Shown here piece after piece: positions 18,385 to 53,473 of a stretch of DNA of 64,000 nt. The position numbers were made by a program, and so were the translations under genes. Origin of the DNA: a virus; IMG/VR virus record IMGVR_UViG_3300027893_000003, positions 62,001-126,000 of that record; one strand, written 5' to 3'. Under the pieces are notes generated by a model that was given only the letters and a program-made list of their open reading frames with translations, searched no databases and was not told the DNA's origin. How positions within the stretch are numbered: position 1 is the first letter of the stretch; the number at the start of each line of letters is the position of its first letter.

Positions 18385-21300
18385 CTATGGCGGTGTAGTT
18401 GTAGTTGTCGTGGTTATATAACTAACTAAACAGAAGTTATCAAGCGCAATCTCAAGTATCGGAGCAGAACCAGTTAAATTTCTAAGTTGGAACGTCAATG
18501 GATAAACCACATTGCCTACTGGGTGTGTTACTTGTGTCCACTGAGCAATTAGAACCCAAGATCCGCCACTCCAATAATAAGTCGACCATATACTACCTAC
18601 TCTTGCTAAACGTAACTTTCCTGACATATCAGCAGTAGCAACAGCACCTAAATATCCAAACGAACTGCCACTACAGTAGTAAAGGCGATATTCATGCACT
18701 CCACTCCAGACACCTCTCATTACTCCAACATAAGTACCATTACAGAATCCAATAGCAGCTTGATCCCAACCCGACATAATTATATACCAGTCTTCTGAAA
18801 TTGTACTTTGGAGTATCTCATAATCGACTTGAACATCAAAGTCTCCAACTCCAAGATTGAAGACAGAGTCAACTTCCGGGTTAGGAGTTCCAGACATGTA
18901 TAGATTGAGTTTATTATTTAGAATTCTAACTTCATTACCAGTTCCGCCAAACGTCACGTCAGTCCAAAGTGCTGGATTAGGCGGACTATAGTCTGGTCCA
19001 GCAAATGAGTCTCCAATAGGACCCCAGCAGGTAGTTGTAGTTGTTGATGTTGTGGAGGTTGTAGTAGTAGTCGTAGTAGTTGTAGTAGTAACTGTACTTG
19101 TAGTAGAGGTTGTTGACGTAACTGTTGTAGTCGTGGTAATTATCGCGGTCGAATCTTGTATATAAATTTGAACAATATCCTTACTACCCATACAATCAAA
19201 TAAACCTTCTTCATCAAAATCTTGCCAACCACCTGCCATATAACCATATAGATAGAAAGGTTCATCCGGAGGTGTTGGATCCGGGATAGGAGGTAATGTC
19301 AGAGTTGTATATTCTTGATCTACCCATTGGAGAGATTCATCGACCCACTGGGTCTGCCAATGCGGACTATTGTTAATCCATTGGGTTAACAGTACCTCAA
19401 TTGGGACGCATTGACTCTCATCATCTATCCACTGTCCTTCTTCTTCAACCCACTGTTCTTCTTGACCAGTCCACTGACAAATTTCCGGAGGCAGTGTAGT
19501 ACTCAAAGTTATTGTTGCTGTTGTATCGAAGTTGTAGTCAATTACTGCTGAACCATCTGGTAGGCAGGAGTAGAAATCGTGTACATCCTGACGCACTGTA
19601 AGACGTACGTCGTCTAAATCATCTACAATTCCACTATCATAATATGAACCACAGTCATAATATTCTCTTGCATAATATAGAGCAGCTGTTGAATCACAAG
19701 GAGACGTCTCTGGATATGGACAACATGGAATACTATCAGCAACTGGGGTATCAACAACCGTCTGATAAATAATCATCGAAGATGCGTCGTCAAGTCTAAT
19801 AGAATCTAACAGAGCATCATCGAAAATTGCTGCTGATTCAAAGAAAGCGAGTCTTGCTCTATAAGGTTTAAAGAAATCAATAACTTGCTTAATTAAGAAT
19901 GGAATGCCCGCAGCAATTGAACCAAGATTTGGATATGCACCAAAATGCTCAAGTATCCACTGGTGTAAATCTGTAAATAGATATTCAATTAGGGTTGCAT
20001 CATCTCCGGCATCAAACCAGCTATCAATATCATTCTTTAAATCTGGATTTATTGCAGCTAGAATTGTCTCAGCAGCATCTGGATCGACTTGGTAAGGTGG
20101 GCTATTGAATAGTCTAGACCAATTCTCTCTAAATATCTCAAGTTTAGCTTTTCTATCATCTCTCGATTCTGGAGGTGTATTAACCAATTCTTCAAATTCA
20201 GCATCTGCTTCTTCAATCGTCCCAATTATATCTTTATTATACTCTAAGTTCCTTGGAGGTGGAGTAGTTGTCGTTACAGTACTTGTTACGGTAGTTGTTG
20301 TTGCTGTCGTAGTGGTAGTAAAGGTGGTTGTAGTAGTAGTAAGTGTTGTAGTAGTAGTAGTTGTAGTGGTTAGCGGAGTTCCTTCAAAATCATCAAACTC
20401 AACAATAAATTGAATATATGGTGGTATAGTAGTTGTAGTTGTTGGAAGAGGCGGAATAGTCGTAGTAGCAGGAGTAGTAACTGTTATTGTGGTTGTAGTC
20501 GCAGGACTCCAAAATCTAAAGAAATCAAACTCAACTTCGAAATCAGGTGGAGGTGTTGTAGTAGTTGTAGTAGTTGTAGTTGTAGTTGTTGTAGTAGTAG
20601 TTGTGGTCGTAGTTGTACTTGTTGTAGTTAGTGCCTGCTCCTGACTAACAGGATCAAATATTTGAAATTCGTGGGATGTACTAAATATGTTCTCTCGTAC
20701 AATCATATACCCACACGGCGGAACAACATGACTATGTTTTAAAGTAAGTTGTTGAGGTGGATCTATAAAGCTAAAGTCTATATCACAACAATTAATCCCC
20801 TCTATAAAATCAGTAGAAAATTCGGTATCAATATAGTACCCTTTACCTCCAACCGTTGCTTCCCTAGCAAATAGAATACCATAAGAGACTCCAAATAACT
20901 CACTATTTATATATTGAGCTTCCCACTTATTACTTATAGGACCTATAGTAACTTTATTTACTAACCAAGTTGACCCGCTATATCTTTGATAGTGTAAATT
21001 CCCATCAACTTCATCTCTCCAGAAAAGGTGAGTTTGACCATAGTCATCTGCGACTACTTGCCAATTCTGAATTGATGTTGAATCTGAATCTGAAACCTCT
21101 GCTGGATGTATAACTGGTTGGAAGAAACTTCCAGCCCACTCAGCGTACATAAATCTATTGCCCTCTTTGATAATGAGGGTTGCTCCTCCACTTCCAGTCT
21201 GACACCATGCAATATCACTATTAGTAACAGTCTCAAGAGGATCATGCGCCCAGTTAAGACGTAATTGCCATGCTATAGAGATATTTTCATCGGCAAGTTG

Positions 21301-22599
21301 ATAAACAGTAACATTCCCCCCTCCAGCATTAGCAATGAGAAAACCTCCAATAAGAGGATCGCCACTAGGTCTTGTCAGTATTAAATGCTGAGTTCCTGCC
21401 GGAGCCGCAGGTATTGTCTGTGTAGTTTGCCAAAAGAGTTCAGGGTTTCCAGATAGGATTTTACATAGTGTAGTTCCTGCTATTACGTATAATTCCAAAC
21501 CATAGGGATCAACACAAAAACGACCAGAAGAAACTTTTGTCGCTTGACTAGTCCATGTCAAACCAAAGTCATCTGAATATTTAAGAACTCTAAAACCTGG
21601 TGAATAATAAAACCAGTAAAAGAATCTCTGTATTGGAGGAATATAAGTTATAAAATTTAGACTTGACCATGAACCATCTGACCCCGGCATTGATCTTTGA
21701 AGGCATCTATCACAACAGAGCCACTCAAATGGAGGAGCAGTTGTGGTAGTTGGAAATGGAGGCATAGTTGTGGTGGTTGTAAAATATGTAATTGAAGTTG
21801 TTGTGCTTCCAGTTGTACTCGTTGTAGTTGTAGTAGTTGTACTTGTAGTAGTCGTTAGTGAACTTAAATCCCAAACCTCATAAACATCATAGAAATTATC
21901 AGTAGCTCCAACTCCACCTACTCCTACCCAACCAGAGAAGGATGGACCAGATCCAGTCGATAATTCTATCATCCAGTCAGAAGGCTCCGGATCTCCATCT
22001 TCCCATACCTTTGCTTTTAATATAGTATTATCATATACTCTAAATCTGATCCAATACCATGTCTGAACGTAATGATAGAATCTCTTATCTGCTAAAGGAA
22101 TCCCCCATAAAGCAGAATTATTCCAATAGCCAACTTCTAAATTTAATCCATCATTAAGTTTAGCATAGAAACCATATTTACCACTATCTGCACCCGAACC
22201 TCTAACAATAACAGCTGGATCTCCAGTCGTACTTAAACACTTAACCCTAGCAAGCACTTCAACGTCAGTTAAAAATCCTGGCGTATCCCAAGAAATAGAT
22301 TTCTCAAATGGTGCTACTGAAATGCGTTCACGCATCGACTGACCACCAATACGACCAGCCGAACCATCAACTACTCTATATTCTACGCTAGCGGGATACC
22401 AGCGCTCCGTCCAATCAGATGGTTGAGCTCCAAGAGGATACTCGCTAAAACAGGTGCTCCAATCTGCTGTGGTTGGTGGGCAAGTCATAGTAGTGGTAGT
22501 TGTCTGCATTTGAGCGATAGGACCTTCATAGTCGTAGGACACTTCATCCAGTATTTTACCAGATTCAATATCTATGACTACCTTTTCGTAAATCTTCAT
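18385..22599 (-). CDS. Giant modular Thr-rich virion protein, 1404 aa
   Basis: N-terminus: VVIDIESGKILDEVSYDY then EGPIAQ, shared with the next giant gene and resembling the start of other phage structural proteins. Domains in order: a concanavalin-like region (about residues 45-240); a Thr tract (246-291); an Asp-box propeller-like region (about 300-640, YSDDFGLTWTSQ); Thr tracts with EFDFFRFWSPATTTT (655-770); a helical domain (about 790-990, containing LIKQVIDFFKPYRARLAFFE); a Trp repeat block (QWTGQEEQW, GQWIDDE, TQWVDESLQW, about 1035-1095); a Thr tract (1153-1190); and a final concanavalin-like domain. The protein ends in TTTTTTTPP. Likely a tail fibre or tail-surface protein binding glycans; anchoring by the N-terminus is an inference. 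Confidence 0.8.
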   Translation of the reverse strand: MKIYEKVVIDIESGKILDEVSYDYEGPIAQMQTTTTTMTCPPTTADWSTCFSEYPLGAQPSDWTERWYPASVEYRVVDGSAGRIGGQSMRERISVAPFEKSISWDTPGFLTDVEVLARVKCLSTTGDPAVIVRGSGADSGKYGFYAKLNDGLNLEVGYWNNSALWGIPLADKRFYHYVQTWYWIRFRVYDNTILKAKVWEDGDPEPSDWMIELSTGSGPSFSGWVGVGGVGATDNFYDVYEVWDLSSLTTTTSTTTTTTTSTTGSTTTSITYFTTTTTMPPFPTTTTAPPFEWLCCDRCLQRSMPGSDGSWSSLNFITYIPPIQRFFYWFYYSPGFRVLKYSDDFGLTWTSQATKVSSGRFCVDPYGLELYVIAGTTLCKILSGNPELFWQTTQTIPAAPAGTQHLILTRPSGDPLIGGFLIANAGGGNVTVYQLADENISIAWQLRLNWAHDPLETVTNSDIAWCQTGSGGATLIIKEGNRFMYAEWAGSFFQPVIHPAEVSDSDSTSIQNWQVVADDYGQTHLFWRDEVDGNLHYQRYSGSTWLVNKVTIGPISNKWEAQYINSELFGVSYGILFAREATVGGKGYYIDTEFSTDFIEGINCCDIDFSFIDPPQQLTLKHSHVVPPCGYMIVRENIFSTSHEFQIFDPVSQEQALTTTSTTTTTTTTTTTTTTTTTTTTTPPPDFEVEFDFFRFWSPATTTTITVTTPATTTIPPLPTTTTTIPPYIQFIVEFDDFEGTPLTTTTTTTTTLTTTTTTFTTTTTATTTTVTSTVTTTTPPPRNLEYNKDIIGTIEEADAEFEELVNTPPESRDDRKAKLEIFRENWSRLFNSPPYQVDPDAAETILAAINPDLKNDIDSWFDAGDDATLIEYLFTDLHQWILEHFGAYPNLGSIAAGIPFLIKQVIDFFKPYRARLAFFESAAIFDDALLDSIRLDDASSMIIYQTVVDTPVADSIPCCPYPETSPCDSTAALYYAREYYDCGSYYDSGIVDDLDDVRLTVRQDVHDFYSCLPDGSAVIDYNFDTTATITLSTTLPPEICQWTGQEEQWVEEEGQWIDDESQCVPIEVLLTQWINNSPHWQTQWVDESLQWVDQEYTTLTLPPIPDPTPPDEPFYLYGYMAGGWQDFDEEGLFDCMGSKDIVQIYIQDSTAIITTTTTVTSTTSTTSTVTTTTTTTTTTTSTTSTTTTTCWGPIGDSFAGPDYSPPNPALWTDVTFGGTGNEVRILNNKLNLYMSGTPNPEVDSVFNLGVGDFDVQVDYEILQSTISEDWYIIMSGWDQAAIGFCNGTYVGVMRGVWSGVHEYRLYYCSGSSFGYLGAVATADMSGKLRLARVGSIWSTYYWSGGSWVLIAQWTQVTHPVGNVVYPLTFQLRNLTGSAPILEIALDNFCLVSYITTTTTTTPP

Positions 22600-22624
22600 C
22601 TAGATCCTATCTCCCCTTTATCAG

Positions 22625-22636: not shown

Positions 22637-22638
22637 GT

Positions 22639-25600
22639 CTAAACATAATATAAGTCAGCTTGTGCAGCAGAAACTGATCCCAAATGATTTCCGGGTGCTG
22701 CATGACCATTAGTTAGTGTAACTCTAAAATCTGAAAGTTGTGCCGGAGTCAAACTTAAACTAGACCATGTGTTACTATACTCTGCATAATTACCGGTGCT
22801 ATCAGTCTCGATATCCCAATTAGAACCTATTTGTATAGCTCCATCCCATATTCTACATCTGACTTTAAAAGTCGTTGGAGCATTGTCAGTTCTAATTCTT
22901 AATTTTACTTTAATAGCAACAATAGTTGTACCCAAAGTTGGGTTTTCAAATTCCCAACCTTCACCTGCATCATAATAAGTTGGATAAACCCTACTATTAT
23001 CTTGTGTCGGAGAACCATAATCATTTACCATTGTATAATGACCAGGACCAGGATCTGCCGACCAATCATAATCTATATATTCTCCATTAGGATCAATCGT
23101 TTCGATTGATGGAGGAGCAGTTGTTGTAGTAAACCAAGTTATAGAAGTAGTAGTAGTTGAAGTAGTAGTAGTTGTTGTCGTGGTAATAGTAGTAGTTGTC
23201 GACGTTGTGGTAGTTGTCGTAGTAAACCAAGTTACCGAAGTCGTAGTAGTAGAAGTTGTAGTAGTTGTTGAAGTAGTACTAGTCCACCACTCTTCAACTA
23301 AACTATGGCATGGCATTCTTTCAGTATGCTCAATACCAACTGGAAAACTGTAATTTATACCACATGGAGGAATGTGTTCTCTCTCACGAGTTTCATACCA
23401 TTGAGTATGATTATAATCTAGATCTAAACAAATATCACCAGGACCATATGAATGCCATGTATCTCCAAAATCATTACTCCAGAAACCTGCGTGATAATCG
23501 CCAGGTCCGCCATGATATCTATAAACTAAGCAACCAGGATATTTCTCCGGATCCCATACTTGCCTATGTAAGAATTGAGCAAAAGAACCATCAATAGTTG
23601 CTAAACCAATATTTACTGTACCGATTAATTGAGGACTTGACCAACTAGAACTTGTAAATCTCGTGTGATAAATCTGAGATCCTGGTATTGGGTTAGTGCC
23701 TGAACCTTGATAAGCAAAGAACCCATGTACATAACCTCTAGTATCAACCACAAATCTCCACGAAGTTGGATAATCAGAAGGGTCATACCATGGCGTTTGA
23801 GGTATAATATCTGCATTAGCTGACCATGTGGTTATGTCATTTGTATAAGAATATTCTTTACGACCGGTAATTCCACTATTTAGAGATATAGCAACTAGTT
23901 GAGTATTGCTCCGAACAATTATATTATCTCCATTAGCACCATTAGCAAAATCTTTAACTAACGTCCAGTTGGTTATTCTACCATGAGGATATGTAAATGG
24001 ATCAGCGGTATCTAATGGCGCATGATAAATTCTATTAGTTGAAGTTTTGTAAACTAACCAATTATTAAGAGTGGGAGAAACCCAAATATCAGATTTATCC
24101 GCTGAACCTCCAGGTAATACAGTAACTGGTATAATCGTTCCAGCAAAATAACACTCACCAATCATAAAAATTTGAAAGAGATAGTAATTATTAAGCGTAT
24201 CTCTAACAAAGAACTCTCCCCTTGCTTTATTATAAGATAGGTGAAAACTATAAGTATCAGTAATAGTAATACCAAGATCTAGAGAGGACCACCTAATAAT
24301 CTTAGCATCAGTACCGTCCATCAGCCAAGTCTGGCCTAAGTCTGTGTAATCCCTCATTATTCCTGGATTTTCATTACCAGAAGAGTCATAACCAACCCAG
24401 TAAGTGTGTCCCCAATTACTATTGTACAGCCTATGTGTGACACCAAAATTACTATCATATGGCGGCATCTCAGTTTGACCACATGGACAATCTCCTATAA
24501 ATTCAAAATAAGTAGTCGTGGTTATAACCGTACCTGTTGTGGATGTAGATGTAGTAGTCGTTGTTGTCGTTGTTGTTGTTGCAGGCAGAGGATATGAAGC
24601 ATAGTGACCAACCCAACCTTTAGAACCATTATAGAATAATAGATCAATAGTACTAAAGAGAGTCCAATCGCCTTCCACTATAGGTTCAGTTAGTGAATAA
24701 AAATAAGAGAAATGGGGAGTCCCAAGAATATACTTACGGCGTATCCTCACCCAAAATTCAGATGCTACAATTGGGATCTCTTCATCGTTAATAGTACCTA
24801 CGTTTGAATATAGAGCAAACGCATATAAATTACCGCCGTAAATTCTACCTCCAACTTTCGCATAGACATCTTCCTGATCCCAAACTCTGAACATGAGACC
24901 AAACTCTTGAAATTGACCCGTAAATGAAGGAACTATAATTTTAGTCCAAACATCAAATTCTGTTCCTGCTGGTTCACATTGAGCAATATAAGTTGGAGTA
25001 CATGGATCTATTGCATTACAACCATCTGCACCTGAATGGACATGAAGTGTCCCGCCAGATTCAGAGAATGTTCCTCCTCTTTCATCTTGGAGTGCCCACC
25101 TGGGATCTATTACAGTATCATTAAATTCGTCTTGCTCTAAACCTAGACACGGTGCAGTTGTAGTAGTTGTCGTACTAGTGGTAGTTGTTATTGTGCTTGT
25201 AGTAGTAGTTGACGTAGTGGTAGTAATAGTAGTAGTTGTTATACCATAAGTAAGTTCTCCAAAATGTATAAATCTACTAGTTAAACCGTCTAAATATGCA
25301 TATGCTGGGCATCTAGTATCCCACCCATAGTGGTTGAGACTTGACACTTGATCTACTGCTGTTAAGGGGTAAGGAAGAGAAGGTGGTACTAATTCTCCAC
25401 CCCAGCATTGACCGCAGAACCAACCTTCATTCCAAGTAAACCCTCCAGTTGTACTTACTCTCCCTACATAGTTGGTATAATATGGTGGATTGAAGGGATC
25501 ATCGGGACATCCAGAAGGGGCGCTTACGATAGTGACAAAACCTACAACATTACCTGGAGGAGCTAAACGCTGGTTATAGAAAGAGAAGACATTTCCTGGA

Positions 25601-27333
25601 GTATCATCATAAACTCTAACCGCCGTGCTCCATCCTGATACAAATGACCACCGAGAATAGTATATACCTTCAGGAGGAGTAAACTTGCTGAAAAAGACGT
25701 GAACATTGCCAGTTGGATCTACAGAGGCGCTTACTCTATTTGGCCACCCACCAGGATCAGTAAAGTCCATTCCAGCAGTCTCTGTAATATGTTGAACTCC
25801 AGTAAGGCCGTCAATACCCCACACGGGTGGACCTCCTGGTGGATCGCTCACAATATGGGCTATTGCGCTATATACTCCATTAGTCGTTCTTGCAAACGAC
25901 ATTGCTCTATCGTAATCAAGTCTAATTAACTCAGTTTGACCAGAATATGGCGCTGCTATTGTCCCCCTACTAGCGTACCAGTAAGCGCCAAATATATCAT
26001 TATGCTCTCCCAGTGAGAAGGCCGGCCCAGGTATTAACCCCATCGTTATAAATTGAACTCCAGCAGGAGCAGCAATTTGAACAATAGATGAACTTCTTGT
26101 GCCTGCTGCTGTACCGGCCGCCATAAAAGTAGCTGCACCAGTTGCTTTGCTTATGGCCATCCAGCCAAAATTAATTCCATCTGTTGCATTTGAAATATAG
26201 AAATAAGCATTAGCTGGACTAAGATCAACCATGGCCCAACCAGTAGCAGTTTCAGGACCAGTTAAATGAAAATCAGTCCATGTTCTACCTTGATCATCAG
26301 AGTATGCATAGTGTGGAGGATTACCTACCCAATGTCTGTCAAAACCTGGTTCATAGAAGTGCCAAGGTTTAGGGGCCGAAGTATTTCCAAATCCTGGTGG
26401 AGTAGAAGCTAAGCAACCACAACCATCGTCATATGGATACGATTGATGATAAGTAGTTGTGGTCGTCGTTGAGCTAGTACTTGTAGTTGAGGTAGTTGTT
26501 GTTGTTGGCCAAACACCAGTCCGGATGTCAATTAAATACGTACCAGTATCATCGTTGTCATAGTCCCAGACCTTTACATAATAGCGCCCTATGCCCAAGT
26601 ATCTATCAATCTTGGACATAGTCCCCACGCCACCGTCATCATTTTCTTCTATAAAAAGGTCTGGGTCATCTGGCCCATTTAAACTTATTACTGTATCACT
26701 AATTCCGCCATCAAAATGCGTCTCAATTATATATCTGTTAGCTGACGTAGCATCAAAGTACCAACAATCAAGTTCTCCTAGAAACTCTATATTACCCTGA
26801 GCTGCAGTTCCATCAACTATCAACTCAGGGGGAAACAAACAAGGATCTACTGTTGTAGTTGTAGTTGTAGCTCCCTCGAAAAATTCTATATTTGTTATTT
26901 CAAAACCAGTAGATGACTGAATCTCGTCTAGGTGGTATATATCATTTCCTGCCCAACTAATAGTACCTTCATACGTTCCTGGTACAGTAATCGAAGGGGT
27001 TGTACCAATAGGAGTAAAACCAGTATCTGTAAGAGAGAACTGTACTGGAGTATCTGTAATATTAGTAACTGTTACTCTAAATTTCTCAGGTCTATAACCT
27101 ATTTGCCATACTGCACTAACATTGGTTCTAATACCCATGTTGACAGTATTTGGTACCCAAGAAGAACCAGTCCAACTACACTGAAAATAACACTGCCATC
27201 CACTTGCATCATTAAGAAAATGTGATACCCAGGAACCCTGCATTTGAGCGATAGGACCGTTGTAGTCGTAAGACACTTCTTCCAAGATCTTACTTGATTC
27301 AATGTCTATGACTACCTTTTTGTAAATCTTCAT
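22639..27333 (-). CDS. Giant modular Thr-rich virion protein, 1564 aa
   Basis: The first 32 residues are a near copy of the preceding paralogue (VVIDIESSKILEEVSYDY, GPIAQMQ). Modules in order: a beta domain with IGYRPEKFRVTVTN that ends EITNIEFFEGATTTTTT (residues about 35-160); a pre-peptidase C-terminal-like domain (about 165-275, GRYYVKVWDYDNDDTGTYLI); a propeller with SDDQGRTW; a concanavalin-like module (DEFNDTVIDPRW, then CNAIDPCTPTYIAQC); a second propeller (SNDFGDTWHSYG); Thr tracts near 24510-24590 and 23110-23290; and a C-terminal beta domain. Asp-box propellers and concanavalin folds typically bind sugars, so receptor binding is likely. Thr tracts use all four Thr codons mixed. Confidence 0.8.
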   Translation of the reverse strand: MKIYKKVVIDIESSKILEEVSYDYNGPIAQMQGSWVSHFLNDASGWQCYFQCSWTGSSWVPNTVNMGIRTNVSAVWQIGYRPEKFRVTVTNITDTPVQFSLTDTGFTPIGTTPSITVPGTYEGTISWAGNDIYHLDEIQSSTGFEITNIEFFEGATTTTTTVDPCLFPPELIVDGTAAQGNIEFLGELDCWYFDATSANRYIIETHFDGGISDTVISLNGPDDPDLFIEENDDGGVGTMSKIDRYLGIGRYYVKVWDYDNDDTGTYLIDIRTGVWPTTTTTSTTSTSSTTTTTTYHQSYPYDDGCGCLASTPPGFGNTSAPKPWHFYEPGFDRHWVGNPPHYAYSDDQGRTWTDFHLTGPETATGWAMVDLSPANAYFYISNATDGINFGWMAISKATGAATFMAAGTAAGTRSSSIVQIAAPAGVQFITMGLIPGPAFSLGEHNDIFGAYWYASRGTIAAPYSGQTELIRLDYDRAMSFARTTNGVYSAIAHIVSDPPGGPPVWGIDGLTGVQHITETAGMDFTDPGGWPNRVSASVDPTGNVHVFFSKFTPPEGIYYSRWSFVSGWSTAVRVYDDTPGNVFSFYNQRLAPPGNVVGFVTIVSAPSGCPDDPFNPPYYTNYVGRVSTTGGFTWNEGWFCGQCWGGELVPPSLPYPLTAVDQVSSLNHYGWDTRCPAYAYLDGLTSRFIHFGELTYGITTTTITTTTSTTTTSTITTTTSTTTTTTAPCLGLEQDEFNDTVIDPRWALQDERGGTFSESGGTLHVHSGADGCNAIDPCTPTYIAQCEPAGTEFDVWTKIIVPSFTGQFQEFGLMFRVWDQEDVYAKVGGRIYGGNLYAFALYSNVGTINDEEIPIVASEFWVRIRRKYILGTPHFSYFYSLTEPIVEGDWTLFSTIDLLFYNGSKGWVGHYASYPLPATTTTTTTTTTSTSTTGTVITTTTYFEFIGDCPCGQTEMPPYDSNFGVTHRLYNSNWGHTYWVGYDSSGNENPGIMRDYTDLGQTWLMDGTDAKIIRWSSLDLGITITDTYSFHLSYNKARGEFFVRDTLNNYYLFQIFMIGECYFAGTIIPVTVLPGGSADKSDIWVSPTLNNWLVYKTSTNRIYHAPLDTADPFTYPHGRITNWTLVKDFANGANGDNIIVRSNTQLVAISLNSGITGRKEYSYTNDITTWSANADIIPQTPWYDPSDYPTSWRFVVDTRGYVHGFFAYQGSGTNPIPGSQIYHTRFTSSSWSSPQLIGTVNIGLATIDGSFAQFLHRQVWDPEKYPGCLVYRYHGGPGDYHAGFWSNDFGDTWHSYGPGDICLDLDYNHTQWYETREREHIPPCGINYSFPVGIEHTERMPCHSLVEEWWTSTTSTTTTTSTTTTSVTWFTTTTTTTSTTTTITTTTTTTTSTTTTSITWFTTTTAPPSIETIDPNGEYIDYDWSADPGPGHYTMVNDYGSPTQDNSRVYPTYYDAGEGWEFENPTLGTTIVAIKVKLRIRTDNAPTTFKVRCRIWDGAIQIGSNWDIETDSTGNYAEYSNTWSSLSLTPAQLSDFRVTLTNGHAAPGNHLGSVSAAQADLYYV

Positions 27334-27356: not shown

Positions 27357-27368
27357 TTTGTTCCAACT
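27357..27368 (-). repeat. TTGGAACAAA intergenic motif
   Basis: Minus strand reads TAG-TTGGAACAAATCAATAAAGGAG: the stop codon of gene 27367-30441 is contiguous with the motif, which runs into the RBS of the next gene. Confidence 0.6.
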
Positions 27369-30465: not shown

Positions 30466-30477
30466 TTTGTTCCAACT
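30466..30477 (-). repeat. TTGGAACAAA intergenic motif
   Basis: Minus strand reads TAG-TTGGAACAAACTAACAAAGGAG: again the stop codon of the upstream gene (30476) is contiguous with the motif and the RBS follows. Confidence 0.6.
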
Positions 30478-40802: not shown

Positions 40803-41030
40803 CTATGTCAACTTCCTTAGATATGGACATGGTCCAATCTTATCTGTAAATACTTTATTAAGTTCACAACATTCACCACATCTGCTACATTCTCCTTTTC
40901 TCTCTAATTCATCAAACCAATATGTACAAGATAGATAATGTTTCTTAAGTTTTGTCTGTAGAGTCGGAAAATCCCTACAGATTTTTGGTCTATCTTCATA
41001 TATCAAGCATCTAGATTTTGGTTCCAACAT
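40803..41030 (-). CDS. YkgJ-like Cys-cluster protein with motifs in permuted order
   Basis: About 75 residues from ATG 41030. It contains CLIYEDRPKICRDFP first, then CTYWFDELERKGECSRCGECC and finally CPYLRKL at the C-terminus. In YkgJ-type proteins (putative Zn/Fe-S binders) the CxxCxxCC block comes first, then CPYL, then CxIYExRPxxCRxFP. Here the order is reversed, as if circularly permuted. No RBS is evident and the start overlaps the preceding giant gene by 20 nt, so the true start could be further upstream in frame. Eight cysteines could hold a metal cluster. Confidence 0.6.
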   Translation of the reverse strand: MLEPKSRCLIYEDRPKICRDFPTLQTKLKKHYLSCTYWFDELERKGECSRCGECCELNKVFTDKIGPCPYLRKLT

Positions 41031-45893: not shown

Positions 45894-46823
45894 CTAATCA
45901 AGTGAGAGTCTATAGCAATCTGCAGGGGGTTTTCGCCTCAAATCAGGATAATTAAATTTAACATTCTCAGAACCTGCCCAGTGTGTAATATCTCTCTTAC
46001 CAAACATTCTCATTTCGTAAACTTGACCAAAACCTCTAGTTACAAAAACTCTAATTAAATTCCAGTTCTTATCATATATTTGAATCTCACCATCAACTTC
46101 ATTTCTTTTCTTACAACCATGAAAATGATGAGGAGAAATTCCAATACAATTATATTTATCAGTAATGGAAACCCCTCTAGGGAAACCACCAGTCCGAACT
46201 ACTTCTTTCCCTGTAGTTGTAATTATCTTCCCATCTCCAGAAGAGCAGGTAAAAAACTCACCATTTTCACACCATATATTATGGATCATTCTGCCAACAT
46301 CTAGAGTTTCTATATACTTCAAACTGGGATACTCAAAAATTGAAATAAAACTTGGCCTCTGTTTATTATGAGCACAAACAAAAACATGACCATCATAAAA
46401 CCAAACGCCATTCATATGATAAATATCTCCACCCCTCTTCTCTGGCCCCCTATAGGTTTTTTCGTTAAACATCCTCCAAATTTCCCAACTCTTATTATCA
46501 AAATCATAAATATTTGCATAATCATATTGAGTATTAGCAATCCAGAGTTTATCATCAAACCAAAGAATCTGATGAGGAGCAATAATTGAACGATGTTCTG
46601 GAGGTTTAATAGTTTCTATCCTTTTAAAATTACGATCATAAAAAAGGAAAGTTGTTGAAATACCCAACCAAACACAAGTAACGAGAAATCTATCACTCCA
46701 AGTTATTCCCCAATGATAAAGTTGGTGGTGCCTCTTAAAGATATCATAATCTCCAGTTTCTGGATCCAGAATCAAATACGCTCCATAAGTTCCAACAATT
46801 AATTTCCCAGCTAGATCAACCAC
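45894..46823 (-). CDS. Beta-propeller-like protein
   Basis: A 309-residue protein with repeated strand pairs rich in W, Y and G: LIVGTYGAYLILDPETGDY, YHWGITWSDRFLVTCVW, HQILWFDDKLWIANTQYDY, HMNGVWFYDGHVFVCAHN, HNIWCENGEFFTCSSGDG. This resembles propellers related to SMP-30 or DUF4915-type proteins. No catalytic pattern is evident. GTG start at 46823 overlaps the methyltransferase gene by 8 nt. Presumably part of the glycan-making or sensing set. Confidence 0.5.
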   Translation of the reverse strand: MVDLAGKLIVGTYGAYLILDPETGDYDIFKRHHQLYHWGITWSDRFLVTCVWLGISTTFLFYDRNFKRIETIKPPEHRSIIAPHQILWFDDKLWIANTQYDYANIYDFDNKSWEIWRMFNEKTYRGPEKRGGDIYHMNGVWFYDGHVFVCAHNKQRPSFISIFEYPSLKYIETLDVGRMIHNIWCENGEFFTCSSGDGKIITTTGKEVVRTGGFPRGVSITDKYNCIGISPHHFHGCKKRNEVDGEIQIYDKNWNLIRVFVTRGFGQVYEMRMFGKRDITHWAGSENVKFNYPDLRRKPPADCYRLSLD

Positions 46824-47349
46824 TTTTAATCCCTTCTACTCTAAAATCTCTACGGCCCATTCCATGTGTCCAACCTTTTCCAACATGCCTAATATAGAAT
46901 CCAATCTCAGCCATATGTTGAGCAACCATACACCCAGTCCAACCAGATTTATGTGTCCACTCTTCTCCACGAGTATACCTGTGAACGTTTGCAAAGATAC
47001 AATCAATTAAGCTCTTAACATCTGGTTCTTTCCGGCCACCCCATCTATTACCACAGTCACAACCAACATAATACCAATAAGCACCTAAGATATCTGGACC
47101 TTCAATTATTAAAATTCCTCCGGGTTTAAGAACATAGTATATATCTTTAAGCATTTGTATACTTTGCTCAGGTTGAAAATGTTCGATTACATGAGAACTC
47201 AATACTTCATCAAAACTATTTTCTTTGAACGGTAAATACTCAATCATTCCAACCACTCTAGGTACATCCATTTCAGGTTTACGTATCTTCATATCATAAT
47301 TAACAAATTCTTTCTTCAACATTATACCACTACCAAGATTCAACTTCAA
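46816..47349 (-). CDS. Class I SAM-dependent methyltransferase
   Basis: A 177-residue Rossmann methyltransferase: LNLGSG (motif I, SAM-binding glycines) at the very start, DEVLSSHVIEHFQPE at about residues 46-60, and LKPGGILIIEGPD near residue 75-87. This is the Methyltransf_11 order. The C-terminal part is Trp/Gly/His-rich. It lacks the helix normally found before motif I, so it is compact. TTG start 47349 with GGAGGG upstream. Substrate unknown; sugar or lipid O-methylation suggested by neighbours. Confidence 0.8.
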   Translation of the reverse strand: MKLNLGSGIMLKKEFVNYDMKIRKPEMDVPRVVGMIEYLPFKENSFDEVLSSHVIEHFQPEQSIQMLKDIYYVLKPGGILIIEGPDILGAYWYYVGCDCGNRWGGRKEPDVKSLIDCIFANVHRYTRGEEWTHKSGWTGCMVAQHMAEIGFYIRHVGKGWTHGMGRRDFRVEGIKSG

Positions 47350-47350
47350 A

Positions 47351-47785
47351 TTACCCTCCAGTTGGTGGTGTCGGTTTCGTCAACTCATCAATCTTCTTTT
47401 GCGCTTCAATTCTTTTCTGCTTCCAATATTCATATTGAGCTTTCAAATCCTGATTATTTGGATCTCTTTTCAATTTATATCTGAAATCTGTTTCCCTATC
47501 CAAATATTCTTGATACCTCTGGTTCCAGAACTGTAAATCTTGCTGTTTCTGAAACTGCTGTAAACTAGATATAACCTCTGTCTCAAGGTTCTCAAGTTTA
47601 CCAATAATATCCTTTTTGTGGATATCTAAATCCTTTTCTGTTGCAACCACAGCATCAAGACCATAAAAACCAGCTATCAAACCTATTATAACACCAATTC
47701 CAACAATTAATTTCCAAAGTTCAACACATTTCTTTTTGACGTTATCAATAAGACAAACTTTTTTATTATTATTCTCTTCTGGCAT
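47351..47785 (-). CDS. Membrane-anchored coiled-coil protein
   Basis: About 144 residues. One transmembrane helix (WKLIVGIGVIIGLIAGFYGL, about residues 24-43) is followed by a long charged coiled coil (KLENLETEVISSLQQFQKQQ, then EYWKQKRIEAQKKIDEL) and a Pro/Thr tail. ATG 47785 is used, because GGAGGG lies 7 nt upstream. It may organise the glycosylation enzymes at the membrane or be a tail-lysis type protein; the sequence does not decide. Confidence 0.6.
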   Translation of the reverse strand: MPEENNNKKVCLIDNVKKKCVELWKLIVGIGVIIGLIAGFYGLDAVVATEKDLDIHKKDIIGKLENLETEVISSLQQFQKQQDLQFWNQRYQEYLDRETDFRYKLKRDPNNQDLKAQYEYWKQKRIEAQKKIDELTKPTPPTGG

Positions 47786-48356
47786 TTTCATCCCTCCATA
47801 AAGCAAAAGGCGGAGATTTCAAAACTTCATCTTCAGGTAAAGAATTCACAAATTTTGTTACACCTGGAAAACTATCCTCCTTATTCTCCTTTATTAAATG
47901 CCATGCATAGTCGTGAAAAATCACATTCCCACATTTCCTAACAAGTTCATAATCATGAGATACTGCTTTATATGTATGTTCACCATCAATAAAAGCACAA
48001 TCAAAATCGAGATTCTCAACAAATTTCTTTATTCGATCTAGCTCTGGAGAAACGAAAAATCTAATTCTTTCAGAAACCCCTAGATAATCCCATATCTCTT
48101 TCGAAATGGGTTGAAAATGCAAATCTACAGTTATTACTTCCGCAAATAAACTTAAGTAGGCTGCAGATAATCCTTGATAAGTTCCAATCTCCAGAATCTT
48201 CTTTGGTTTTACTATCTCAATGAAGTCTTTTAGTATCCGACTAATCTCAATTTTGTCAATTGCGGTAGCCTCATTATTAATTTTGCTACCAAACCTTTCC
48301 TTAATAGTTTCAAAAATATTCTCTTCTGATATAAAATCGGTTAAATTTTGCCGCAT
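47769..48356 (-). CDS. SAM methyltransferase, Methyltransf_24/CmcI-like
   Basis: A 195-residue protein. KKILEIGTYQGLSAAYLS is a SAM-binding motif I; EVITVDLH then follows as the acidic ribose contact, DFDCAFIDGEHTYKAVSHDY is the family signature (metal and substrate site), and NVIFHDYAWH follows. This is the pattern of CmcI/sugar O-methyltransferases. Overlaps the coiled-coil gene by 17 nt. Sugar methylation in the same operon is an inference. Confidence 0.8.
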   Translation of the reverse strand: MRQNLTDFISEENIFETIKERFGSKINNEATAIDKIEISRILKDFIEIVKPKKILEIGTYQGLSAAYLSLFAEVITVDLHFQPISKEIWDYLGVSERIRFFVSPELDRIKKFVENLDFDCAFIDGEHTYKAVSHDYELVRKCGNVIFHDYAWHLIKENKEDSFPGVTKFVNSLPEDEVLKSPPFALWRDENARRE

Positions 48357-48387: not shown

Positions 48388-49188
48388 CTATACAAGTGAA
48401 TGATGGATATTTAAAACCACCCCAGTATCGCTCTGAATAGACTTTAAGTGGTAATAGGCTAGCATAACAGCTTTCTTTACAGTAGTGATTTTAATTTCCT
48501 GCATACACTCTTTCTCAACGGGATTAATACACGGACCAGGATTATAGCAATAGGAGCAGTATTTCCTATTTGTTATATTAATTTGTTCTTTATAACCATT
48601 CCACTCCGGGTCAGCAAAACCTCCATAAACTACAACACACGGAATATCTAATGCCCTACATAAATGAGATATTCCGCCTTCTGCACATATAATAGCCCTA
48701 CACGAAGTAAGAAATTCAACAATTTCCCGTACTCCTCCAACTTTTGGAATAGGTTGAAACCCAGATTCCTCAGATAACTCAGAAAATTTCCCCCAATTCT
48801 TCTTTCCATGCCAGTGATTCTTATGTATAACCTGAACTCCAATATTACCCTTTCTATCTCCATGCTTAAATTTAAAATAGATCTCAGGTTTCAAAATAGG
48901 TATTTCAGTCTGAATTCCATATTGCTGACAAACTATTTCCCAATCTCTTAGTATGTGATGTTTTCTGGGCCACTTTCTATGAATAGGATCATCATAACCC
49001 AGAAAAACTCCCTCTTTACCTCTTGTATTAACTTCATCAATAAAAGGATTATTCTCTAATAAGAGAGGATAATTAGTATTTACAATTATCTTCCTATCTG
49101 GATATGCCTCCTTAATTTTTCTCAGAGTAGGAGTCATAAATAGACAATCACCTATACCATTAAATGATTTTATTACTATATCTACCAA
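48388..49188 (-). CDS. GT9 (heptosyltransferase-like) glycosyltransferase
   Basis: A 266-residue GT-B enzyme of the ADP-heptose transferase type: starts with FNGIGDCLFMTPTLRKIKE (Rossmann start with GIGD and TPTL), later IGVQVIHKNHWHGKKNW, then EFLTSCRAIICAEGGISHLCRALDIP, the GT9 donor-binding loop, followed by VVVYGGFADPEWNGY and a Cys cluster (YCSYCYNPGPC). Normal GT9 enzymes are about 330 aa, so this one is short. TTG start overlaps the preceding gene by 7 nt. Confidence 0.85.
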   Translation of the reverse strand: MVDIVIKSFNGIGDCLFMTPTLRKIKEAYPDRKIIVNTNYPLLLENNPFIDEVNTRGKEGVFLGYDDPIHRKWPRKHHILRDWEIVCQQYGIQTEIPILKPEIYFKFKHGDRKGNIGVQVIHKNHWHGKKNWGKFSELSEESGFQPIPKVGGVREIVEFLTSCRAIICAEGGISHLCRALDIPCVVVYGGFADPEWNGYKEQINITNRKYCSYCYNPGPCINPVEKECMQEIKITTVKKAVMLAYYHLKSIQSDTGVVLNIHHSLV

Positions 49189-50612
49189 TTTCTGCTCTCC
49201 CCAATAATGGGCAACATCTCCTCCTTATAAATTCTATCCATATTATACATCCGTCTCATAAATGTCTTTGCCATAAGTGAGTATTCTTGTCTCATTCTAC
49301 CTCTAATAATAGTTGCTATATCTTCGTAATATTTATCACCCGGTATTGAAAAATTATGGGTAAAACTTCCAAAATCAAAGTACAGGGCATTTAAACCTGC
49401 AACCTCTGACTGCATTTGTAGAGATCTATTCAATACTAATAGCACTCCACCACTTAAAGCAGCCTCAGGAAGAACAAGTCCAAATGCTTCTTCTCTCGTT
49501 GGAAAAATAAAGAGGTTCGAAAGAGAAAATAAATCTTTCACAATATTAGCATCAACACCTGTTTCAAAGCGGGGAGTTTCAAAACGTGAACTAAATATTA
49601 ATTCTTTATCTGGTTCTAAACCAAGACCCCTAGCAGTCTGGCAATATTGCTCAACGGTTTGACGATGTTTGTCAACATTACACCACTGGTTTAGAATAAT
49701 AAGTCTAACACTTTCTCCCTGCTTCTTTAGGTTAGAGAAGATTCTTATAACATAATCAACACCTTTAGCATGAAGACGATCAACTGAAGCCGGATATACT
49801 TGAATAATAGAAGCATTCATTAAGTCATATTGATCTATCATCCTACAAGCAATTGGATCAAAATCCATAAAGGTTCTCATATCCTTTATATGGTGAACAA
49901 TTCGAACATCATCCAACTCCCCTCTAAATTGTTCAGCAACTCGTAGTCTATCAGTTTCATTAGGAAATATGATCTTATGCTTCTTGCTTGGAATTTTCCA
50001 ATATTCGCGCATACCACTTGGAATACTATGAACCCAATGAAGCCATCTAACATGGGGAAGTTGAAAAGATGCTTTTTCGAGACCTAATTTGTAAGGTAGG
50101 AACCAACCTTGGAAATTTATATCATGGCAGAAAGCTAATTCATAAACATCTCCATCTCCATCTGTATTAGTAAACACTTTTTTAAGTACCTGTTCTGTCT
50201 TATCAATCGTAACTTTGTGTTCTTCTTTTAGGTCATTTATATTGTGGTAATCTTTTAAATGGGCAAAAGGAAGGACTTTGAGCATCTCAACACCCTTAAA
50301 ATCCTGATCCCTATATTTTTCGTTGACAATAAGGCCAACTTTGTGCCCATTTTTCGTGAGTGCTTGAATGTGGTCTTTAACAATTCCAGTTAATGAGTAG
50401 CGAGGATTAAACTCCATGAAGTTTGTGACAATACAAATCTTCTCTTTCTTACCCTTCCCTACACTCTTTTGCTTAAACTGTTTAGGGGGTTCAGGTTGAG
50501 GGTGCGGAGCAAGTTTCCTTTTATCCTGAATTGTAAAACCGGATTCAGGTTGCTTTTCCTTCATCTCAACGATTCCATCTTCCTTCTGTTCCATATCAAT
50601 AACTTCACCCAT
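49182..50612 (-). CDS. GT4-family glycosyltransferase
   Basis: A 476-residue GT-B enzyme. After a charged, Pro/Gln-rich N-terminal extension (about 55 residues), the first Rossmann half begins KICIVTNFMEFN. The C-terminal half shows SIIQVYPASVDRLHAKGVDYVI, then the donor-binding EX7E block FPTREEAFGLVLPEAALSGG. It retains the retaining mechanism of GT4, using an NDP-sugar. Acceptor unknown. Strong RBS (AAAGGAG). Confidence 0.85.
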   Translation of the reverse strand: MGEVIDMEQKEDGIVEMKEKQPESGFTIQDKRKLAPHPQPEPPKQFKQKSVGKGKKEKICIVTNFMEFNPRYSLTGIVKDHIQALTKNGHKVGLIVNEKYRDQDFKGVEMLKVLPFAHLKDYHNINDLKEEHKVTIDKTEQVLKKVFTNTDGDGDVYELAFCHDINFQGWFLPYKLGLEKASFQLPHVRWLHWVHSIPSGMREYWKIPSKKHKIIFPNETDRLRVAEQFRGELDDVRIVHHIKDMRTFMDFDPIACRMIDQYDLMNASIIQVYPASVDRLHAKGVDYVIRIFSNLKKQGESVRLIILNQWCNVDKHRQTVEQYCQTARGLGLEPDKELIFSSRFETPRFETGVDANIVKDLFSLSNLFIFPTREEAFGLVLPEAALSGGVLLVLNRSLQMQSEVAGLNALYFDFGSFTHNFSIPGDKYYEDIATIIRGRMRQEYSLMAKTFMRRMYNMDRIYKEEMLPIIGESRNW

Positions 50613-50614
50613 AT

Positions 50615-51643
50615 TTAATTCTCCTTTTCAATAATCTTTCCTATCACCTTATCAAATCTTTCTGCAAAAACATTATTGTCTAGAACTTCTTTTAGCGCGT
50701 TATACGCATTAATTGTTATATATTTGTACTTAGAATAATTTTTTATGACTTGAAAGACAGTTTCTCTAAAATCTGATAGATCTAATTTGACGGGTATATA
50801 AGTTTCCATAGGTTTGTAAATATCTGGCCATGTTTCTATATGTGTTATCTCTGGTTTAATCAATATTGCTCCATGAACTATTGCTTCAAAATCTCTCCAA
50901 CATAATTCCCCATCTCCAAGCGGACTAATACAGACTTTTGAGTGTCTCATTAAAAAGTGATATTTTTTATCTTCTCTACTTTTCTGAACAGGGAATCTTC
51001 TAAGTTCCCCACATTTTCCGGAAGTGGTAAATTTATACTCCTCACATAACTTTTTAACCTCACTAACAAAATGATTTCTGTGAAGTTGATAGTGCTCATC
51101 GCCCTCATAGAATGGTTCTAGACCAATACTAAAGTGAATATCAATTGGTCTCTCAACACTAAAATCTGGTGCATGCCTCGTAAAGAAATCGTATAGACCT
51201 AAATTCCAACCAAGATATATTTTTGAAAGGAGGTCAGGATTCCACTTATTCCTAGGAGTGTATACCTGAGGTATCTCGTATATAGGACTTATTAAATGAT
51301 AGTGGTAATATGGTAGTTTAAACCTATATAGGTGTAGGTCCTTAAAGAGACACATCTTTGTACAACCAATGACTCGCTCTTGTTCAAGATGCCAGAAATT
51401 CAATTTACCTGTAGAAACTTGCTCATTAAATATTATTATCGGACTAGACTCGTCGTTGATCCTTTTTGAATAAGTATGATAGTGAACATCTTTTGGAATA
51501 AAAGCAAAATTTATTATCAATATATCGTAATCGTTATTAGAGAATTGATAACCATAATCCTTTAACTCATTTATAGCCCTAGCAATTGGAGTATGTGTAG
51601 CTAAAGCTATTCCATTATACCAAACACAAAGTTTAAATTTCAT
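50615..51643 (-). CDS. Exostosin-like glycosyltransferase
   Basis: A 342-residue protein whose C-terminal half has the exostosin/GT47-like signature: FLMRHSKVCISPLGDGELCW, RDFEAIVHGAILIKP, where SxxCISPxGxGE and a later EAIxxGAI are conserved in such enzymes. The N-terminus is non-catalytic GT-B-like. ATG 51643 follows GAGG closely and overlaps the radical SAM gene by 11 nt. It fits with the neighbouring transferases as a glycan-building enzyme. Confidence 0.7.
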   Translation of the reverse strand: MKFKLCVWYNGIALATHTPIARAINELKDYGYQFSNNDYDILIINFAFIPKDVHYHTYSKRINDESSPIIIFNEQVSTGKLNFWHLEQERVIGCTKMCLFKDLHLYRFKLPYYHYHLISPIYEIPQVYTPRNKWNPDLLSKIYLGWNLGLYDFFTRHAPDFSVERPIDIHFSIGLEPFYEGDEHYQLHRNHFVSEVKKLCEEYKFTTSGKCGELRRFPVQKSREDKKYHFLMRHSKVCISPLGDGELCWRDFEAIVHGAILIKPEITHIETWPDIYKPMETYIPVKLDLSDFRETVFQVIKNYSKYKYITINAYNALKEVLDNNVFAERFDKVIGKIIEKEN

Positions 51644-52556
51644 GGACCTCACTCATCTTTATCCAATTCTGAGATTCTTTCATCTCCAGGTAAACCTCAC
51701 AGGAACTACAAGCAATGTCTTGACGGCTATCTTCTTCTCCCAAGAGCATCTGACGAGCATATTCAATCTTCTCATTATTCAAACTCTCTCTGAGACCTTC
51801 TTTAAAAGCATTACCAAAATCTCCCCAATACTGAACACAGCAACCAAGGACTTTTCCATCATAATTAATTTGAGGTTTTGTCCATAGTTGAGTACAGAGG
51901 TTTCGAATATAATGCTTACCAAATCTGTTCTTAAATTCTTCTCGTGTAGGAGCTCTCTCAGGTTTAGCTATAGAATCTTTAACATAAAAATTTTCCCAAG
52001 AAAGTTTAGGGAAAAAACTCATACCTAACTTTTTAGCCATTTCCCCTGCACTTTCAAGTTCGTGTATATTATGATCAAACATTATAAATTGCCAAGTTAA
52101 CTGTGGATATCTAGAATTGTACTGCTTCTTAAAATAATTGATAGTTTGAATATTCTCTATCACAGCATTAAAATCTCCTCTGCGTCGATAGATACTATAA
52201 GTCCCTGGTGTAGCTCCATCAATAGAACATTTCATACTTCGAAATTTATATACAATCATTGCTTCAAGAATATCTCGACTAACAGTATTTAGATTTACAC
52301 CATTATCAGCACTCAAACCTACATCTCTCTTATAAGCGTGGTAAAAAATAGGTATCAAGTCCGGGTTGAGAAAAATCTCCCCCCAATTAGAAAGTTCAAT
52401 ATTCGAAATCCAAGAGTTACTATCAACGAGATTTTTAAAATCCTCAATTCGAAGATGTCCAGATCCAAGATACCTACTCACATCTCCTGAAGATGTCGGA
52501 CAAGAGGGACACTTTAGTTGACAAATTGTTGTAGCTTCTAATCGAATAGATTTCAT
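51633..52556 (-). CDS. Radical SAM/SPASM enzyme
   Basis: A 307-residue enzyme with the [4Fe-4S] motif CQLKCPSC at residues 12-19. The middle has SIDGATPGTYSIYRRRGDF, a string common in SPASM-family radical SAM enzymes. The C-terminal cysteines (LCTQLW, GKVLGCC, CSSCEVYLEM) are the usual SPASM auxiliary-cluster pattern. It lies within the glycosyltransferase operon, with overlapping ends, so an oxidation or dehydration of a sugar or of a peptide is plausible. Substrate unknown. Confidence 0.85.
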   Translation of the reverse strand: MKSIRLEATTICQLKCPSCPTSSGDVSRYLGSGHLRIEDFKNLVDSNSWISNIELSNWGEIFLNPDLIPIFYHAYKRDVGLSADNGVNLNTVSRDILEAMIVYKFRSMKCSIDGATPGTYSIYRRRGDFNAVIENIQTINYFKKQYNSRYPQLTWQFIMFDHNIHELESAGEMAKKLGMSFFPKLSWENFYVKDSIAKPERAPTREEFKNRFGKHYIRNLCTQLWTKPQINYDGKVLGCCVQYWGDFGNAFKEGLRESLNNEKIEYARQMLLGEEDSRQDIACSSCEVYLEMKESQNWIKMSEVHEI

Positions 52557-53473
52557 TACTCTTCTTTTCTAAAACTAAAATATTTCTCACACCATTGGTG
52601 CAATTTTGGTTTGTTAGTTGCCCAAGTCCAGCAATCATTACTATCTAGTTTAATGTCTTTTCTGGGGTCAAAATTCTCCGAGACAAGAATCTCAAATCTC
52701 TCATCATGAAGCTTATTAATTTTATCTCCATGCCATAGATGAAAAATTAGACCAGGAACAAAATAAACATTGCTTTTAACTATATTATAAATTTCCTCAA
52801 ACCACACATCTTGATCTAATTGCATTGGTTCAGAAGACAAACTCCTAATATAATTAAATTTATGACCGTAGAAAGTATGGGCCATCATCAAGTCACCAGA
52901 ACCAAGAATTAACCTATCATAAAAACCGTGCTTATTAAAAATCTCTCTTCTGGCAGCCCAGGCAAACCCAGAATGACCATGTATAAAAAAATCAAAGAGC
53001 TTTTCCCTATCAGAATCTCGCATACCGTAACCCATACTATGAATTTTTTGACCCTCTTCTAATCCAAAAGGCAAATCCTCAGAACTTATTATTCCATCCT
53101 TTGGTAATCTAATAACGAATGAAAAAGGTTGAATAACAAAATACTTATCCAAAGATTTATATACTTCCTCAACCCAATTATCATTCTGAAAAATAATGTC
53201 ACAGTCAATCCAGATAATCTTAGTACAATCATCCGGAAGATTTCTTAGACCAATATTTAGTAAACGCTCTTTTTGCCATAATATCGTATTAGATCTTAGT
53301 TGGATCAAAATATCAGCATCATCTTTAGTTAACTCAGGTTCCCTACCTCCGAATGATAACTCAACACATAAAAGTTTCAACCCTTGCTTTTGACTAGATA
53401 ACCTAAACTTCCTATAATTCTTAACCTTGTTCTTATATCCAATAGGATTAAAGAATGAAGTCAAACCCCACAA
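52556..53473 (-). CDS. GT-A glycosyltransferase with DXD motif
   Basis: A 305-residue protein starting with TTG at 53473 after AAGGAG. GT-A features: EKERLLN-type helix, then KIIWIDCDIIF (DCD at residues 90-92, metal-binding DXD), HGHSGFAWAARREIF and LILGSGDLMMAH, a pattern in which an acceptor-binding GD or ED follows the second beta sheet. Acts as a nucleotide-sugar transferase; substrate unknown. First gene of the operon after the tailspike. Confidence 0.75.
   Translation of the reverse strand: MWGLTSFFNPIGYKNKVKNYRKFRLSSQKQGLKLLCVELSFGGREPELTKDDADILIQLRSNTILWQKERLLNIGLRNLPDDCTKIIWIDCDIIFQNDNWVEEVYKSLDKYFVIQPFSFVIRLPKDGIISSEDLPFGLEEGQKIHSMGYGMRDSDREKLFDFFIHGHSGFAWAARREIFNKHGFYDRLILGSGDLMMAHTFYGHKFNYIRSLSSEPMQLDQDVWFEEIYNIVKSNVYFVPGLIFHLWHGDKINKLHDERFEILVSENFDPRKDIKLDSNDCWTWATNKPKLHQWCEKYFSFRKEE

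Follow-up and report, generated by a model that had tools for sequence, protein, structure and literature searches.

A candidate virion O-glycosylation pathway in a jumbo phage, suggested by a GalNAc-transferase-fold enzyme and Thr/Ser-rich virion proteins

A stretch of 64,000 nucleotides from the virus record IMGVR_UViG_3300027893_000003 of IMG/VR (positions 62,001 to 126,000; referred to here as the window) contains five giant genes rich in Thr/Ser tracts and, beside them on the same strand, a gene (44943-45884, minus strand) for a glycosyltransferase with the predicted fold of the polypeptide N-acetylgalactosamine transferases (GalNAc-Ts). The tracts, the predicted fold, the gene neighbourhood and the co-occurrence of enzyme and tracts make it probable that this phage carries its own O-glycosylation pathway for the virion, which would be initiated by this enzyme on the Thr/Ser tracts. 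Dozens of other phages carry a GalNAc-T-shaped enzyme together with Thr/Ser-rich virion proteins, suggesting that they also coat parts of their particles with sugars. An initial annotation of the window had proposed virion O-glycosylation, and this interpretation is supported by the present analysis; the link between tracts and enzymes, the use of the tracts as acceptors, the order of the steps and their physical effect are the parts that we infer. The source phage is a jumbo myovirus, given the size of the record behind the window (223,954 bases) and the presence of a contractile tail sheath gene (14552-16534, minus strand; phrog_19666/phrog_23) in the context of a myovirus tail gene block.

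The five tract open reading frames (ORFs) are all located on the minus strand, lie between the sheath gene and a pectate-lyase-like gene, and encode proteins of 1404, 1564, 1024, 2781 and 1287 residues, in agreement with the places and the size range (1024-2781 residues) of the initial annotation. Together they contain 32 tracts of at least 10 Thr/Ser residues (878 residues in total, the longest tract having 127), among which 25 have at least 15 residues, 17 at least 20 and 4 at least 40. These numbers are far above those of shuffled sequences: tracts of at least 15 residues had a mean of 0.005 in 200 composition-preserving shuffles of the same proteins (maximum 1). The largest protein (30476-38821; 2781 residues) has 13 tracts with 506 tract residues, a longest pure Ser/Thr run of 126 and SPRY domains, and includes three near-contiguous stretches of Ser, Thr, Pro, Ala, Val, Leu and Ile (77, 146 and 170 residues, 91-95% Ser plus Thr), the longest of which occupies 34808-35317 on the minus strand (95% Ser plus Thr). 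The only other giant ORF with a named Pfam domain encodes the 1024-residue protein (27367-30441; 2 tracts), which is GH43_C2-like (just above the cut-off) and DUF1349-like (below the cut-off). No Pfam domain was found in the 1564-residue protein (22639-27333; 5 tracts) or in the 1287-residue protein (41011-44874; 8 tracts), whose gene lies directly downstream of that of the GalNAc-T-fold enzyme; in a related phage (locus L003), the ORF at the latter place has a similar start and a C-terminal Thr tail. Finally, the 1404-residue protein (18385-22599) has 4 tracts and itself ends in a Thr tail (ITTTTTTTPP). Since all four Thr codons are used inside the tracts (ACT.40, ACA.34, ACG.16 and ACC.10) much as outside them (.54,.27,.09 and.10 in the same order), the tracts are not one expanded trinucleotide, and it seems to be the protein sequence that is conserved.

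The proposed initiator (313 residues) matches GT2 in Pfam (E 1.2e-8) and contains the motifs DAHC, MSTCGM and GIYGGGEN as well as a late His, H232. When a profile of three relatives was searched against the PDB, a bacterial GT2 enzyme ranked first and polypeptide GalNAc-Ts were matched at E about 1e-6 to 1e-5; with an 18-member profile, the top four chains were GalNAc-T10, T9 (two chains) and T4 (E 3e-11 to 1e-10), followed by the same bacterial GT2 enzyme as the fifth chain (E 3e-10). An AlphaFold model built on a 53-sequence alignment reached a predicted local distance difference test score (pLDDT) of 96.7, and its best 29 entries among solved structures were all GalNAc-Ts (Z 24.4-28.3, over 274-289 of the 313 residues), with other GT-A enzymes as the next fold relatives at Z 20.0 and below, a gap of about 4 to 8 Z units. 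In the model, the enzyme has the fold of polypeptide GalNAc-Ts over the whole domain. The initial annotation had likened its DXH motif to that of polypeptide GalNAc-Ts, which is borne out by both profile and model: D101, H103, G206, G207, E208 and H232 are invariant in the 53 family members, and the invariant regions align with ppGalNAc-T9 (its D-S-H-C and a late His) in the 18-member profile search. In GalNAc-Ts, the DxH motif and a later His serve as metal ligands, and a WGGEN-type Gal/GalNAc motif is typical of these enzymes; GGE is invariant in the present family, but the Trp of this motif is replaced (Y204-G-G-G-E).

The enzyme family is almost purely viral. Its members were detected at 66 loci of the viral collection, a few of which represent the window's own phage, and at a single locus in 84,980 prokaryote genomes, which clusters at 85% or more with two viral loci. 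After near-copies (at least 85%) had been merged, 65 proteins gave 53 clusters, the fragments L004 and L005 being excluded. Among 50,697 named phages the window enzyme had no match, and two other family members matched Tunturiibacter phage Tunturi_4 and, weakly, GT2-type proteins. Tunturi_4 gp2 (PP885687; L529, 1567-2565) is a distant relative (25% identity, E 1e-17; profile E 9e-31) from a phage with an acidobacterial host; its gene is located between the terminase and portal genes, and its motifs read DNHC for DAHC and AGEE for GGGE.

Tracts of at least 15 residues were present within 10 kb of the enzyme gene in 26 of the 53 clusters (confined to the strand of the enzyme in 25), compared with 1 of 99 random loci and 5 of 35 relatives of the sheath locus that were at least 10 kb long (60 sheath-relative loci in all, a close relative, L065, having been dropped). 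In whole contigs, a run of 14 Thr/Ser codons (WCN) was found in 27/53 clusters (24/50 plus 3/3), 26 of which had it on the enzyme's strand, in 0/43 random contigs (Fisher P 3e-9) and in 2/33 sheath relatives (P 1e-5; L026 and L073 excluded). The 43 random contigs were the longer ones from the 99 random loci, and at least one pair looks duplicated (both 103,026 bases); the looser 8-codon run that was used for contigs appearing empty occurred in 1 of 28 random contigs, as an ACC repeat. Local and contig-wide tracts combined accounted for 34 clusters. Piecewise reading of contigs that had appeared empty added C-terminal tails in five (L321, L339, L344, L348 and L356) and Thr runs in two more (L203, in a 54-residue frame, and L336), so that the enzyme is accompanied by tracts or C-terminal Thr tails in 41/53 clusters by all methods. 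More methods were applied to the family clusters than to the random contigs; the comparisons made on equal terms are 27/53 versus 0/43 and the tail counts given below. The presence of tracts is spread over the enzyme tree without clustering (14 changes versus a shuffle mean of 15.7, with 105 of 500 shuffles as low).

The relatives widen the idea beyond fibre linkers: in those read whole, many tracts form tails at the C-termini of capsid and tail proteins. Whole contigs were read for such tails in 20 of the 53 clusters, 8 chosen because they were empty by DNA pattern and 12 for length (all 12 pattern-positive), and ORFs were counted as six-frame stop-to-stop frames of at least 100 residues, uncurated as genes. 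Fifty-two of 3432 closed ORFs ended in a Thr/Ser tail, and 18 of the 20 contigs had at least one, including 6 of the 8 pattern-empty contigs (14 ORFs). The controls had none: 0/2215 in the 99 random loci, 0/632 in 4 random contigs read whole (4 of the 99 loci fall inside these contigs, so that the two counts overlap) and 0/895 in the 60 sheath-relative loci, or 0/3742 together. Tailed proteins matched the major head (phrog_29), major tail (phrog_807), head-tail adaptor (phrog_477), head scaffolding (phrog_673) and minor tail (phrog_290) families. When the core of the major tail protein, stripped of its tail, served as query, 51 loci were found, and all 50 complete members (8 of which are the query source proteins; L525 was excluded because of a stop after 78 residues) end in a Ser/Thr-rich region, with at least five Thr/Ser residues in a row in 49 by visual count; the exception, L495, is Ser/Ala-rich.

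Further enzymes are encoded on the same strand beside the tract genes. The initial annotation had listed five glycosyltransferases, three of which are above the Pfam cut-offs: the proposed initiator itself (GT2), a GT9-type, heptosyltransferase-like protein (48388-49188; PF01075, E 8.4e-6) with relatives of 45-85% identity in L003, L323, L324, L337, L344 and the contig of L356, and a GT4-type (GT-B) protein (49182-50612; PF00534, E 8.3e-7). The protein at 50615-51652 is possibly a GT-B glycosyltransferase, being matched by a cassette GT-B family profile at E 1e-4 in a 13-sequence set, with no Pfam match above the cut-off. A possible GT-A glycosyltransferase at 52556-53473 is indicated by motif (acidic and His positions conserved in three sequences); no Pfam, PHROG or NCBIfam model matched it and its structure model was unusable (pLDDT 45.5), and its distant relatives are in the poly-Thr loci L095/L126, which were found by tract alone, and in the enzyme-family locus L343. 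The gene between these two (51633-52556) encodes a radical S-adenosylmethionine (SAM)/SPASM protein, not a glycosyltransferase. The two methyltransferases and the GNAT acetyltransferase of the initial annotation were recovered by Pfam: SAM methyltransferases at 46816-47349 (Methyltransf_11; a 61% identical relative in L003) and 47769-48356 (Methyltransf_24; related to a cassette methyltransferase family), and the GNAT between tract genes at 38874-39845 (PF13527, E 1.6e-5, just above the cut-off). Overall, the tracts, the enzymes and their strand stood as annotated, and the full set of five glycosyltransferases did not. A weakly DUF4915-like protein (45894-46823; below the cut-off) is encoded between the first methyltransferase and the initiator and has a 54% identical relative in L003.

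L003 is the nearest relative of different sequence, its enzyme being 86% identical, and it retains the order GT4, GT9, short coiled-coil-like protein, methyltransferase, DUF4915-like protein, enzyme, tract protein, beta-keto acid cleavage enzyme (BKACE), GNAT and tract protein, the ORFs at the BKACE and GNAT positions being similar to those of the window. Within its 20.9 kb, no match to 47769, 50615, 51633 or 52556 was detected and no pectate-lyase-like ORF was listed. Among the 53 clusters, the most frequent cassette partner is a GT4 relative of 49182 (in 39), followed by GT2-type (29) and GT-B-type (27) proteins and methyltransferases (26 and 11); the window itself was excluded from these counts because L002 is the same phage, and the family labels are Pfam matches of single representatives, several below the cut-off. 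From its gene content, the cassette core looks stable and its decorating part variable. The BKACE gene (39847-40743; PF05853, E 6.3e-77), situated between two tract genes, is an odd companion in a phage; like the radical SAM/SPASM gene, it was absent from the initial annotation.

Several observations weigh against a pathway initiated by this enzyme. Its identity to GalNAc-Ts is just 15-18%, and it lacks the C-terminal ricin-type lectin domain (nothing follows the catalytic domain, and the alignment stops at GalNAc-T2 residue 437), for which reason it is named here a GalNAc-transferase-fold enzyme and not a GT27 member. Two of the five claimed glycosyltransferases (50615 and 52556) are weak. 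Twelve of the 53 clusters have no tract in the contig at hand; 11 of these contigs are 34 kb or shorter, and the remaining one, L359, measures 62 kb, tails being present in its near relative, contig G216. In L355 the tract within 10 kb is on the strand opposite the enzyme, as is the WCN codon run elsewhere in the contig of L353 (a DNA-level run, frame unread), and Tunturi_4 has no Thr tails in the 24 proteins, mostly structural, whose C-termini were read. Within a narrow interval (-5/+6 kb), tracts were found at 5 of the 17 first-found loci, which differs from sheath relatives with P 0.26 at threshold 15, 0.03 at 30 and 0.08 at 50, and from random loci of at least 10 kb with P 0.001 to 0.005. 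In addition, the viral contigs share similar habitats of origin, so that ecology may account for part of the association.

The reverse relationship is also weak, and tracts are commoner than this enzyme. The co-occurrence anticipated by the initial annotation holds in one direction, from enzyme to tracts or tails in the 41 clusters; in the other, tracts are often seen in contigs, mostly fragments, in which the enzyme was not found. Such contigs include two sheath relatives, whose partial contigs have tracts and no detected enzyme. By a run of 18 ACN codons alone, 119 poly-Thr pieces were selected, and a strict scan for the enzyme motifs found none in these pieces, most of which are short; among 49 longer contigs hand-picked from them, 6 had a match to the enzyme-family profile (A2) at E <= 0.001, one of them strong (G131, 2e-39). 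Contigs with a Thr-tailed major tail protein (50 of the 51 loci, L481 excluded) carried the enzyme in 11 of 50 cases, but 8 of the 11 are query source contigs, and after removal of the source contigs 3 of 42 remained. Among non-source contigs of at least 45 kb, 3 of 6 had the enzyme (present in G069, G075 and G090; absent from G158, G180 and G200), compared with 0/43 random contigs; the rate among non-source contigs is above random, though small. G158 (IMGVR_UViG_3300017613_002264, loci L538-L541) has Thr-tailed major tail and other proteins and no family member found in 83 kb, and a different GT2 gene there is possibly an alternative initiator. GT2 genes above the cut-off were present in 16/49 poly-Thr contigs versus 1/43 random contigs (3.1 versus 2.4 Mb, P 1e-4), and only one of those 49 has a clear family member; hence poly-Thr virion proteins seem to accompany glycosyltransferases generally, this enzyme being one solution.

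A pathway consistent with these data would begin in the cytosol, where the 44943-45884 enzyme would add the first sugar to Thr/Ser residues of unfolded tracts in newly made virion proteins, before or during assembly. The GT4 (49182) and GT9 (48388) proteins and variable accessory enzymes would then lengthen the glycan, which the methyltransferases and the GNAT may cap with methyl or acetyl groups. In the jumbo phage, the acceptors would be the linkers and one C-terminal tail of the five giant fibre-like proteins, so that glycosylation would stiffen floppy linkers into mucin-like rods that resist proteases. The C-terminal Thr tails of virion proteins such as the major head and major tail proteins would be among the acceptors in relatives, with a sugar coat as the result.

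It is also conceivable that the cassette alters the host surface (lipopolysaccharide, capsule or teichoic acid) against superinfection, or modifies phage DNA, in which case the tracts would be plain flexible linkers and their proximity a coincidence. The GT9 and GT4 families mostly build envelope glycans, and the many tract-bearing contigs without a detected copy of this enzyme would fit such a role. Phages are also known to encode glycosyltransferases that modify DNA or convert the host serotype (PMC12619734). However, the initiator has the predicted fold of peptide O-glycosyltransferases, by the Z gap over the next GT-A enzymes given above, its co-occurrence with tracts is mostly strand-matched, and the Thr tails are on virion proteins specifically; moreover, no membrane-bound polyprenol-type transferase was seen among the Pfam-named cassette representatives, although no search was aimed at one. 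Glycosylation of the host surface or DNA is thus less likely as the main role, and we regard this explanation as unlikely. DNA slippage is a further candidate: ACN repeats in rapidly evolving fibre genes would then have given rise to the Thr/Ser tracts by a neutral process. Many tract stretches are indeed imperfect repeats at the DNA level, and Tandem Repeats Finder (TRF) reports many imperfect ACN-type arrays within them; yet the four Thr codons are near their gene-wide frequencies, all 50 complete proteins of a major tail family have Ser/Thr tails at the same C-terminus, and the control ORFs are free of tails. On codon use and conservation across phages, this origin is rejected as very improbable.

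A subtler question is whether the first sugar is GalNAc. Tracts could be glycosylated by a different chemistry, starting for example with glucose, N-acetylglucosamine, galactose or a deoxy sugar, which would make the system analogous to mucin-type initiation, and the chances of this appear about even. The low identity to GalNAc-Ts, YGGGE in place of their WGGE, the missing lectin domain, and the presence of enzymes for other sugars among the fold matches ranked 30th and lower all point in this direction, whereas the closest 29 solved-structure entries are all GalNAc-Ts, an argument that is not decisive. A true mucin-type system in bacterial viruses, in which a cytosolic, lectin-less GalNAc-T relative would start on poly-Thr tails and linkers of capsid, tail and fibre proteins, with a cassette shared across phage lineages and dense sugar brushes on the particles, is put forward only tentatively.

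Virion glycosylation has reportedly been described for the mycobacteriophages Che8, Corndog and Myrna by Freeman et al. in 2023. According to two published accounts, mycobacteriophage glycans are located at capsid and tail-tube C-termini (PMC12619734), and the transferases that add glycans to capsid and tail-tube proteins are encoded by the phage itself (PMC12363180). This is the closest system in function, with phage-encoded transferases and the same protein classes as those that are Thr-tailed in the relatives found here. Phage-encoded glycosyltransferases are present in the window and in the family; a Ser/Thr acceptor-like region at capsid or tail C-termini is present in relatives, the window having one C-terminal tail and otherwise linkers. 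In contrast, Che8 gp108, gp109 and gp110 do not match the enzyme family profile (E 0.17 to 1.3), the Che8 capsid and major tail C-termini have no Thr tail, unlike those of the relatives, and giant Thr-linker fibres are unmentioned in the parts of PMC12619734 and PMC12363180 considered. With eukaryotic GT27, the phage enzyme shares the predicted fold, the DxH and GGE motifs, the late His and Thr/Ser-rich unfolded acceptors nearby; it differs in being a viral family that has 15-18% identity, no lectin domain and YGGGE for WGGE and would act in the bacterial cytosol, not the Golgi. The Thr-tailed major tail protein (phrog_807) has distant homologues among the major tail proteins of named phages, which are mostly Casjensviridae (chi-like); the 5 that were looked at among 145 records (4 Casjensviridae, 1 unclassified) have no Thr tail, and the 4 from Casjensviridae are annotated with an Ig-like domain. 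Searches of open-licence PubMed Central papers brought up neither a GalNAc-T-like phage enzyme nor Thr tails.

Some other genes of the window were also observed. Between sheath region and tract genes lies a gene (17379-18290) for a Cys-rich protein whose C-terminal zinc ribbon is weakly matched, an ORF in the same strand block (57370-58482; GDSGS) resembles by eye a trypsin-like serine protease, and radical SAM-type matches were obtained in three genes (2470-3471, 51633-52556 and 61963-62940).

Phage virion glycosylation is already known from mycobacteriophages; here, the sequence contains a readable acceptor signature together with a candidate initiator of GalNAc-T fold. As Thr tails or linkers and this enzyme are found together in 41/53 viral clusters, it could become possible to predict virion glycosylation from genome sequences. 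If the proposed pathway is true, it would provide soluble poly-Thr glycosyltransferases for glyco-engineering and be relevant to the deep evolutionary history of the fold of polypeptide GalNAc-Ts. It would also suggest that many environmental phage particles are sugar-coated, with effects on adsorption, decay and recognition.

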